A stretch of DNA of 64,000 nucleotides, from NCBI RefSeq assembly GCF_009377235.1, contig NZ_VMNX01000016.1:1-64000 (forward strand). The letters run 5' to 3'. Positions 537 through 64,000 of this stretch are shown here, one piece after another; the first letter of the stretch is position 1, and the number at the start of each line of letters is the position of its first letter. This DNA comes from Streptomyces acidicola. GTDB lineage: Bacteria; Actinomycetota; Actinomycetes; Streptomycetales; Streptomycetaceae. The position numbers and the translations under genes are program-made. Below the pieces are notes generated by a model. That model made no database searches. It saw nothing but the letters and a program-made list of their open reading frames with translations, and had not been told where the DNA came from.

Positions 537-3500
537 TCAGTCTCGTGGGTCGGAGTCAAAGCCGAAGTCGTCGTCGGCTGCGAGGGCGGCTGCGTCGGTC
601 GCAGCAGTCGTGTTGGCCTCGTCGGTCATGTCGCCGAGTGCGAGGTTCACCAGGTCGTCGACGGCGAGGTCGGCGATGGCGGTGTCCTCGTCCGGCGTGT
701 CGTCGGACCAGATCGCGCTTTCGTCCTCGGCGCGCCGTTCCGCGTCGTCGGCCTCCGCCAGCAGGGTGCGCAGGCCGGGCAGGAGGCCGGCCTCGTGCAG
801 TCGGCTGAGCGGGACCGCGGCGAGGACGCGGCGTAGACGGGCCTCGTCGACTTCCGTCAGGTCCTGCGGGGAGGTGTCCACGGTGTCGTCGGGGAAGAGT
901 TCGGTGTGGAGGTGGCGGGCGAGGACGGCCGGGGTGGGGTGGTCGAAGACGAGTGTGGTCGCCAGGCGGAGTCCGGTCGCGGCCATCAGCTGGTTGCGCA
1001 GGTCGACGGCCGTGAGGGAGTCGAAGCCGAAGTCCTTGAAGGCACGGTCGGCGTCGATCGCGGCGGGCGTCTCGTGGCCGAGCACCGCGGCGACGCGGGA
1101 CTGGACGAAGTCGCCCAGGGCACGCTCGCGTTCGCCGGCCGGCAGGGCACGCAGCCGCGCGACGAGTTCGCCGGGTGCGGCGGCCGTCGTGCCGGTGCCG
1201 CTGCGGGTGGCGGTCGTCGCGTCGGGCAGGTCGGCGAGCAAGGCGCTGGGGCGCGCCAGGGCGAACGCGGTCGCGAACCGGTCCCAGGAGACGTCCACCA
1301 CGGCGGTGCAGGGGCGGTCGGCGGCGAGCACCTGGTCCAGTGCGGCGAGCGCGCGCTCCGGCGGCAGGGGGCGCAGTCCGGAGCGGCGAATGCGTTCGTC
1401 GGCGGCCCGGTCGGCGGCCATGCCGTCCCCGGCCCAGGGCCCCCAGGCAACGGACGTGGCCGGCAGACCGGCGGCACGGCGGTGCTGGGCGAGCGCGTCG
1501 AGGTGGGCGTTGGCGGCGGCGTAGGCGGCCTGGCCTGCGTTGCCGAGGACGCCGGTCACGGAGGCGAACAGGACGAACAGTCCGAGGTCCCGGTCGGCGG
1601 TCAGTTCGTGCAGCAGGTCGGCCGCACGGGCCTTGGCGGCGAGGGCGTCGGCGAGGTGCCGTGGGGTGAGGTCGGCGAGGACGCCGTTGGCGGGCATGCC
1701 GGCCGCGTGCACGATGCCGGTGAGCGGGGTGTCCTCGGGGATCCCGTCGATCAGCGCGCGGACCTCGTCGCGGTCGATGAGGTCGCAGGCGGCCAGGGTG
1801 ACGCGGGTGCCGAGCGCGGCGAGTTCGTCGCGCAGTTCGGTGGCGCCGGGGGCGTCGGCGCCGCGCCGGGAGACGAGCAGCAGATGCCGGGCGCTCCGCT
1901 CGGCGAACCGTCGGGCGAGGTGCCGGCCGAGGGCTCCGGTGCCGCCGGTGATCAGTACGGTGCCGCGCAGGCCGTCCACTGGGGGCTCTTCGGGACGGGC
2001 GGTGCCGGGGCCGTCGTCCCGTACGAAGCGCGCGGCGAAGACACCGCCCGCGCGGACGGCGAGCTGGTCCTCGGACCAGGTGGTGGAGCGGCCGTGGGCG
2101 AGGAGCTGGGCGAGCCGGGTCAGGTCCCGGTGCCCGGGCCGGACCGGAAGGTCGGCCAACCCGCCCCAGATGTCGGGGTGTTCGAGGGCGAGACTGCGCC
2201 CGAGCCCCCACAGCTGTGCCTGGGCGGGGTGCCGGAGCGGATCCCCGGTGCCGACGGACACCGCGGACCGGGTCGCGCACCACAGCGGCGCACCGGTCCC
2301 ACCGGCCGCGTCGGCCCACGCTTGGGCGAGCAGCAGGGTCAGACCGGTCGCGGCGGGCGGTTGTCCGTCGCCGGTGGCACGGTGTCCGTCACTCGTGGCC
2401 TGGTGTCCGTCGGCCGCGAGCTGGTGCCCGTCCGCTGCGCCCCGGCGCTGGTGTCCGTCCCCGGTGGGCTGCTGTTCCTCCGCCCACGCGAGGAGGGACA
2501 GCGCGCCGTCCGGGGCGAGTTCACGTACCCGGGCGGCGAGCGCGGTGCGGCTGTCGTGGCTGCCGATGGTCAGTACGGTGACCTGGGCGCCGGCGTCCCG
2601 CAGGGCGTGCGCGCACTGTTCGGCGAAGTCGTCCTGGTCGGCCGTCACCTGCTCGGGGGCGACGACCAGCCAGTTCCCGGTGAGCGTGGCGGCCGGTACG
2701 CCGACCGGCTTCCAGGTGACCGTGTAGCGCCAGGCGGCGAGTTCGGACGCCTCGCTCTGCCGCTTGCGCCAGTCGGACAGCGCCGGCAGCAGGGAGCCGA
2801 GAGGCGCGTCCGCGCTGACGCCGAGCCGGTCGGCGAGCGCGGCGGGGTCGCCGCCGTCCACGAGGCTCCAGAATTCGGCGTCGGTGCCGTGCTGCCGTAC
2901 GGCGACCGGCCGCTGTGCCCGGCGGTCGCGCAGCCAGTAGCGGCGGCGCTGGAAGGCGTACGTGGGCAGTTCGACGCGTGCACCTGCCCCGAGGCTGGTG
3001 GGGTCTGCGGCTGCCGCGACAGCGGACCAGTCGGTCCGCATGCCGCGGACGAAGAGGTCGGCCACGGCCGTGAGCAGCGTCTCGGCCTCGGGACGGCCGG
3101 CCCGCAGGGCGGCGGCCGCGGTGACGCGCCCGTCGGAGACGGAGCGGGCGAGCGCGGTCAGGACCGGGTCGGGGCCGAGTTCCAGGAGCCGTGTCGCGCC
3201 GAAGTCGCCCGTGACGGTGGTGAGGGCGTCGTGGAAGCGCACGGGACGACGCACCTGATCCACCCAGTAGGCGGCGGACGCCCACTGCGTCGTGACCGAC
3301 TCGCCCGTGGCGGTGCTCACGGCGGAGGTCGTCGGGCGGCGGTAGCGAATCGTCTCGGCGACGGTGGCGAAGTCGGCGAGCATCGGGTCCATCAGCGGTG
3401 AGTGGAAGGCGTGGCTGACCCGCAGCCGGGACACCCTGCGTCCCTGTCCGCGTGCCACGTCCATCGCCTCGACGACCAGTTCCTCGTCGCCGGACACCAC

Positions 3501-64000: not shown

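Follow-up and report, generated by a model that had tools for sequence, protein, structure and literature searches.

The DNA stretch analysed here, a window of 64,000 bases, carries modules 2 to 12 of a cis-AT polyketide synthase (PKS) with malonyl motifs, and it is quite likely that the enoylreductase (ER) of module 7 was excised cleanly from this line and that a predicted third double bond was thereby added to its product. Most likely, the ER was cut out in a recent ancestor. The window comprises bases 1-64,000 of contig C77 (71,127 bases) in a draft genome of 10.25 Mb and 543 contigs, whose nearest named relatives in a scan with the loading didomain are Streptomyces. The large PKS frames are read from right to left, on the minus strand; they were cut at each KS, and every module was scanned against Pfam. 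Modules are numbered from the true start of the line, with module 1 outside the window and modules 2 to 12 within it.

Module 7 (gene B, 31112-36643, minus strand) has the order KS-AT-DH-KR-ACP, without an ER, according to Pfam and comparison with orthologues. The module 7 of Streptomyces sp. DH24 has an ER and so does that of S. bluensis, located on its contig C38, where the two halves of the ketoreductase (KR) are separated by 319 residues that are absent from the window. The protein database was searched with the module 7 linker, and the ten best hits (66-95% identity, P0121-P0130) were taken as orthologues; the other hits among the best 120 of 708 had at most 50% identity and were excluded. 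Together with the window and S. bluensis this gave 12 sequences for comparison, P0129 being the DH24 protein, and since database entries are clusters at 90% identity, the ER state was read from their representatives. The ER motif of module 7 was found in 10 of the 12 sequences, namely S. bluensis (C38), DH24, JL3001, NPDC001928, HUAS 31, S. coerulescens, NPDC093568 and three S. chartreusis clusters (P0124, P0126, and P0127), and was absent from the window and from S. acidicola P0121, so that all orthologous lines compared except S. acidicola differ from the window in having this domain. Streptomyces sp. CNQ085 was left out of the count; apart from short ends, neither its contigs nor a search yielded modules 6 to 9.

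A maximum-likelihood tree built on the KS-AT-DH part of module 7, with the ER excluded, grouped the window with S. acidicola (98/94) and placed S. bluensis as their sister (100/99) and DH24 as the most distant sequence; over the same part, identity to the window was 94% for S. bluensis and 75% for DH24. The tree needs one change of ER state, which is most simply read as a loss, the direction depending on the tree and its rooting. As would befit a natural excision, the ER-bearing orthologous module occurs in the sister as well as in more distant lineages. Given the 10 of 12 ER-bearing sequences and the placement in the tree, we predict that the third double bond is a derived feature. The strict alternation of DH-KR and DH-ER-KR modules, pointed out in a previous reading made from the sequence only, is real over modules 3 to 8, but it is not a fixed design, as the same 10 sequences have the module 7 ER and the last alternating pair exists only because module 7 here is without one. 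Judged from this comparison, the alternation is not ancestral.

The junction lies at 32440-32441 (minus strand), between the structural (33076-32441) and catalytic (32440-31889) subdomains of the KR. It is in frame: compared with S. bluensis, the window lacks 319 codons at precisely the boundary of the two KR halves, and the reading frame and the DH and KR motifs of module 7 are intact. At the junction S. acidicola reads MAHDE-RVPSPW against MANDG-QVPSPW in the window, hence the same junction with substitutions of its own. An AlphaFold2 model of the joined KR, made on ten sequences, reached a pLDDT of 82.6 and a pTM of 0.87, and the top Foldseek matches were all KR structures (4hxy, 3mjv, 4imp, and 2fr0; TM 0.76-0.81, nearly full length), the best PDB match being phoslactomycin KR1 4hxy (TM 0.76, 462 alignment columns for 451 residues). 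In this model, a ketoreductase fold is predicted to span the join. By sequence, the best solved chains, 8g7w and 3slk (ER-KR didomain), align only from residue 214, the junction being at residue 212, as is expected if the catalytic half of the KR descends from an ER-KR module.

The remaining modules of the window, all on the minus strand and assigned by Pfam and motifs, agree with the eleven extension modules and the domain order given in the sequence-only reading, i.e., KR, six modules alternating between DH-KR and DH-ER-KR, three DH-ER-KR modules and a final KR module. Gene A contributes module 2 (59521-64000; KS(part)-AT-KR-ACP, malonyl), which is incomplete at its 5' end as the first approximately 160 bases of its KS lie past position 64,000, module 3 (54400-59520; KS-AT-DH-KR-ACP, B-type KR) and, as its last module, module 4 (48073-54399; KS-AT-DH-ER-KR-ACP). 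Gene B begins with an N-terminal docking helix and encodes, upstream of module 7, module 5 (42728-47995; KS-AT-DH-KR-ACP) and module 6 (36644-42727; KS-AT-DH-ER-KR-ACP). The latter order is shared by modules 8 (24798-31064) and 9 (18357-24797) of gene C and by modules 10 (11856-18233) and 11 (5667-11855) of gene D, while module 12 (gene D, 537-5666) is KS-AT-KR-ACP with a PKS dimerisation element in place of the DH. The start of gene E, with a docking helix and the N-terminal part of the module 13 KS, was read from Pfam and the open reading frame at 1-525. No consecutive run of DH-KR modules as in polyene macrolides occurs in the window, where modules 3, 5, and 7 are separated by DH-ER-KR modules.

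Each of the 11 modules in the window has its own KS, AT and ACP, as in a cis-AT type I modular PKS, and every AT carries HAFH together with GHSIGE or GHSVGE, as previously read (11/11). The same motifs are present in all 13 modules of the line found in this genome, and HAFH in 14 of 14 extender ATs of DH24, which makes this a malonyl-only PKS for the ATs found; no AT was found for module 14 in this genome. The KS, KR, DH, and ER motifs are present where expected, with few deviations. The KS of module 7 has KSNISH instead of KSNIGH or KSNLGH near the second His (1 of 13 modules here), and since this variant is present not only in S. acidicola but also in the ER-bearing S. coerulescens, it is not tied to the ER loss. 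In module 11 the DH motif is HVVGETVVVP, thus HVVGE and not HxxxG, with Glu for the usual Gly; S. bluensis has the Glu as well, while DH24 has HVVGG. If this Glu weakened the DH, C9 could bear a hydroxyl. The ER motifs of modules 6 and 11 are GGVGVAA and GGVGTAA, respectively. An LDD loop marks B-type KRs, for which an E alkene is predicted where a DH acts, and Trp marks A-type KRs. The KRs of modules 3 to 11 carry the LDD loop, that of module 2 is without LDD but has the Trp and is A-type-like, and module 12 has neither.

The window is the middle of a longer line. Gene A had been read as starting at 63,900, but its open frame reaches 70,440 of C77, and the 5' part beyond the window encodes a loading AT-ACP and one KR module (module 1); gene B, formerly assigned a GTG start at 48,076, probably starts at an ATG near 47,995 instead, matching the S. 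acidicola orthologue. Module 13 (KR) of gene E appears to continue on contig C351, a join we infer from a three-residue reading overlap and the DH24 orthologue. We also observed 206 identical bases in window 214-419 and C351 (L014) 1-206, where the KSs of modules 13 and 14 begin; this identity is probably why the assembly of gene E is broken. With the thioesterase (TE) end found at the start of contig C145 (77% over 229 residues), the flanks thus yielded, where the sequence-only reading had advised looking, the loading AT-ACP with module 1 (C77), module 13 (C351), and the TE end (C145). Of module 14 only this TE end, and not the KS-AT-ACP, was found in this genome, and the number of 14 modules for this strain is therefore drawn from DH24.

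The contig scan with the loading didomain identified S. bluensis JCM 4729 (88%), Streptomyces sp. CNQ085 (82%), and Streptomyces sp. DH24 (75%), the best segments of the remaining loci reaching at most 48%. For the loading module in sixty relatives, none of the matches listed exceeded 52% identity outside this genome, and plasmid records gave no match of at least 60% identity. The DH24 cluster lies on a single 314-kb contig, with genes A-E carrying 4, 3, 2, 3, and 2 KS domains, and its line consists of a loading AT-ACP, 14 extension modules, and a TE. Since its module 14 is KS-AT-ACP-TE, without a KR, the chain end is expected to be a beta-keto acyl unit. Modules 1 to 13 pair one-to-one with their DH24 counterparts (13/13, 71-84%), eleven of them at 75-79%, module 7 at 72-74% in several stretches split by the ER, and module 12 at 84% and 71%. 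The orthologous lines have the same module order where read, which was the whole line for DH24 and most of it for S. bluensis. Orthologues of gene B are present in S. chartreusis, S. coerulescens, S. acidicola and others, with no assigned product. All 3 loading ATs (three species) have Trp where the extender ATs have Arg (14/14); Trp at this position presumably marks monocarboxylic starters, and by this residue the line is probably primed by a monocarboxylic acid.

Contig C29 of S. bluensis (L103-L106) joins module 5 to module 8, skipping modules 6 and 7, both of which are on C38 (L117) at approximately 92-93% identity. C29 is most likely misassembled at near-identical KS sequences, and domain strings read from it would consequently be wrong; a twelve-module S. 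bluensis line was rejected, as both modules are on C38. C90 (L015) 1-17703 and C131 (L016) encode a second PKS, in which DH-KR (polyene) modules occur in runs; it ends in a docking-like tail without a TE, its partner not being found. A protein sharing the C90 end is encoded in S. bluensis upstream of the present cluster, beyond an ABC transporter and a regulator. C90 and C131 were rejected as the remainder of the line described here, since the DH24 line A-E has its own TE.

Without its ER, module 7 would pass on its intermediate as a 2-enoyl chain, and a C16=C17 double bond would persist in the product. Kept as a 2-enoyl, this intermediate would lead to a triene, while the other strains would make a diene; in the otherwise identical chain expected of the ER-bearing relatives, only the two double bonds closer to the starter would be present. 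The colinear reading proposed earlier, a hydroxyl, three double bonds with ethylene spacers, eight methylene carbons and a hydroxyl, follows from the tool-called domains and stands for this part of the chain, but the chain is longer, as the window is only the middle of a line with a loading and 14 extension modules. Two more KR modules (modules 1 and 13) and a final unreduced module, the last by orthologue, would contribute further units, and the macrolactone would read R-CHOH-CH2-CHOH-CH2-CH=CH-CH2CH2-CH=CH-CH2CH2-CH=CH-(CH2)8-CHOH-CH2-CHOH-CH2-CO-CH2-CO. The chain would thus be built by 14 extensions, released by the thioesterase and then probably glycosylated and oxidised by flanking enzymes. 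No compound matching this domain string was found in the literature (open-licence papers only).

The product is most likely a glycosylated macrolactone, and the structure given above is a prediction. The Pfam families EryCIII-like_C and UDPGT matched above cut-off on C214, indicating a glycosyltransferase, whereas the NCBIfam MGT matches at the end of C77 and in CNQ085 were below the curated cut-off. The flanks, here or in relatives, encode MGT-like glycosyltransferases, a methyltransferase, a DegT aminotransferase, a ThiO-like FAD oxidase, and P450s, and in addition a pyranose-oxidase-like GMC oxidoreductase, a PhyH-type dioxygenase, a type II thioesterase, and LuxR-type regulators; the names MGT, ThiO and pyranose oxidase come from NCBIfam matches below curated cut-offs, while the Pfam families were above theirs. 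Similar genes lie upstream in S. bluensis, CNQ085, and DH24; they include a ThiO-like oxidase in each of the three and, in S. bluensis, a DegT aminotransferase as well as a pyranose-oxidase-like GMC enzyme. A pyranose-oxidase-like GMC enzyme, a DegT aminotransferase and a ThiO-like oxidase were observed beside glycosyltransferases on L121 (C214) and in L026 2937-7310. Perhaps an amino sugar is built on an already attached hexose.

Since the line is repetitive and S. bluensis C29 is apparently misassembled, the reality of the ER loss was tested. A short-read assembly error, with a real DH-ER-KR module and two double bonds, could be suspected from this repetitiveness, which includes a 245-base exact repeat common to the KSs of modules 6 and 8, from the apparent misjoin of C29 that skips modules 6 and 7, and from the origin of both ER-less sequences, which lie on contigs of 71 and 91 kb and not on complete chromosomes. 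We nevertheless hold such an error to be very unlikely, because the S. acidicola protein is joined at the same place between flanking residues that differ, the reading frame continues across a join that falls precisely where the two KR halves meet, and the border repeat is only about 15 imperfect bases, with no exact repeat of at least 150 bases at the junction. Only two exact repeats of this length are present in C77, neither at the module 7 junction; the 245-base repeat (window 41901-42145 and 30154-30398, KS regions of modules 6 and 8) is a possible hot spot for recombination or misassembly. Moreover, no orphan ER was found when the genome was searched with the S. bluensis module 7 ER and 40 of 433 candidate places were scored: the six best matches were the six ERs of C77 (79-87%), followed by C502 (70%), C277 (68%), and four fragments of 41-85 bases, with nothing long near the approximately 92% expected of the orthologue. 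It is likewise scarcely credible that module 7 originally had no ER and that the domain was acquired in the other lines. The tree is unrooted and one branch separates the two states, but DH24, the most distant sequence, and the sister S. bluensis both have the ER, the root would have to fall inside the pair of window and S. acidicola, and the catalytic half of the KR is most like KRs following an ER.

The ER may also have been lost without consequence for the product, if the ER of module 6 or 8 reduced the module 7 intermediate in trans. In azalomycin F biosynthesis, ER1/2 serves module 3 (PMC9899208, excerpt), and by analogy such cross-module action may remove the third double bond here, which is the chief doubt about the predicted triene; the flanking modules 6 and 8 both carry ERs with NADPH motifs. 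However, the azalomycin F effect needs recognition between ER and KS3, and substituted canonical ERs gave tiny amounts, as far as the same excerpt describes (PMC9899208), and we therefore consider this rescue unlikely, if worth keeping in mind. Another possibility is that the triene serves as a polyether precursor and undergoes epoxidation and cyclisation like that of monensin. Trienes with ethylene spacing are classic precursors of polyethers, made by monensin-type lines before epoxidation, so the triene pattern does have a precedent; P450s, a PhyH-type dioxygenase, and FAD oxidoreductases also flank the PKS here or in relatives. In contrast, the chain would be no more than a diene in 10 of the 12 lines compared, and the presence of glycosyltransferases suggests a glycoside. 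Neither a MonCI-like epoxidase nor a MonB-like epoxide hydrolase was present among the flanking proteins scanned (several contigs, a subset of ORFs), and for this reason the polyether precursor was set aside as very improbable.

With regard to how the ER of module 7 was excised, this domain is flanked in S. bluensis by CTGCTGGTACCGCCG and CTGCGGGTGCCGTCG, which agree at 12 of 15 positions, and the window retains a version of the second border. Recombination between these short imperfect direct repeats bordering the ER would probably account for the 319-codon in-frame excision. We favour, with some reserve, the view that one recombination between short direct repeats removed one ER, converted a two-alkene chain into an ethylene-spaced 1,5,9-triene and marks usable cut points. 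Strong blocks of GC and TA skew (GRINS-like) were observed in window 25250-26850, 37950-38950, and 30150-30850, in ER-KR and KS regions. The ER-KR stretches of modules 6, 8, and 9 are strongly skewed, and 70 of 635 windows of 500 bases passed 0.15 in both skews, a cut-off looser than the 25% given in the excerpt of PMC10394414 and applied without requiring internal identity. Near the junction the skew moves from (-0.07, -0.15) to (+0.17, +0.29) in adjacent 250-base bins, and similar shifts occur elsewhere. Skewed repeats (GRINS) have been proposed as drivers of PKS gene conversion (PMC10394414; PMC9899208; both in excerpt), and an involvement of GRINS-like skew in the ER loss is only suggestive.

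Among known systems, the azalomycin F PKS is similar in that it is a large cis-AT line for a macrolactone and its use of ERs does not follow the module pattern, but there an ER-less module is served by the ER of another module, whereas here an extra double bond is expected (PMC9899208, excerpt). The marinolide PKS (mld) is likewise a large macrolactone line, for which the HAFH/YASH logic gave the planar structure; in the excerpt of PMC10301374 it has nine modules with the methylmalonyl motif YASH, in contrast to none here. Product variants of the mycolactone PKS are explained by recombination between near-identical domains and modules, described in the excerpt of PMC2569948 as replacement of AT and KR domains and gain or loss of whole modules and not as excision of a single ER as here. 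Monensin-type PKSs share the ethylene-spaced E,E,E-triene, but the present line has no methylmalonyl motifs, is accompanied by glycosyltransferases and has no epoxidase or epoxide hydrolase in the scanned proteins. While PKS variation by recombination is known, what the present case adds is a cleanly excised ER alongside sister lines that still have theirs.

In PKS engineering, deleting or swapping an ER is often unsuccessful, and where best to cut is a matter of debate. Here, an apparent natural ER deletion has been kept in two related genomes, with intact sisters available for direct comparison, and such matched strains allow tests of the boundary, of the folding of the joined KR and of the tolerance of the next KS. 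If true, the cut points after the LTPMA motif and before VPSPW are candidate engineering rules. Furthermore, a colinear prediction from a single strain does not describe this family, as the relatives are predicted to make a diene and the present strain a triene.
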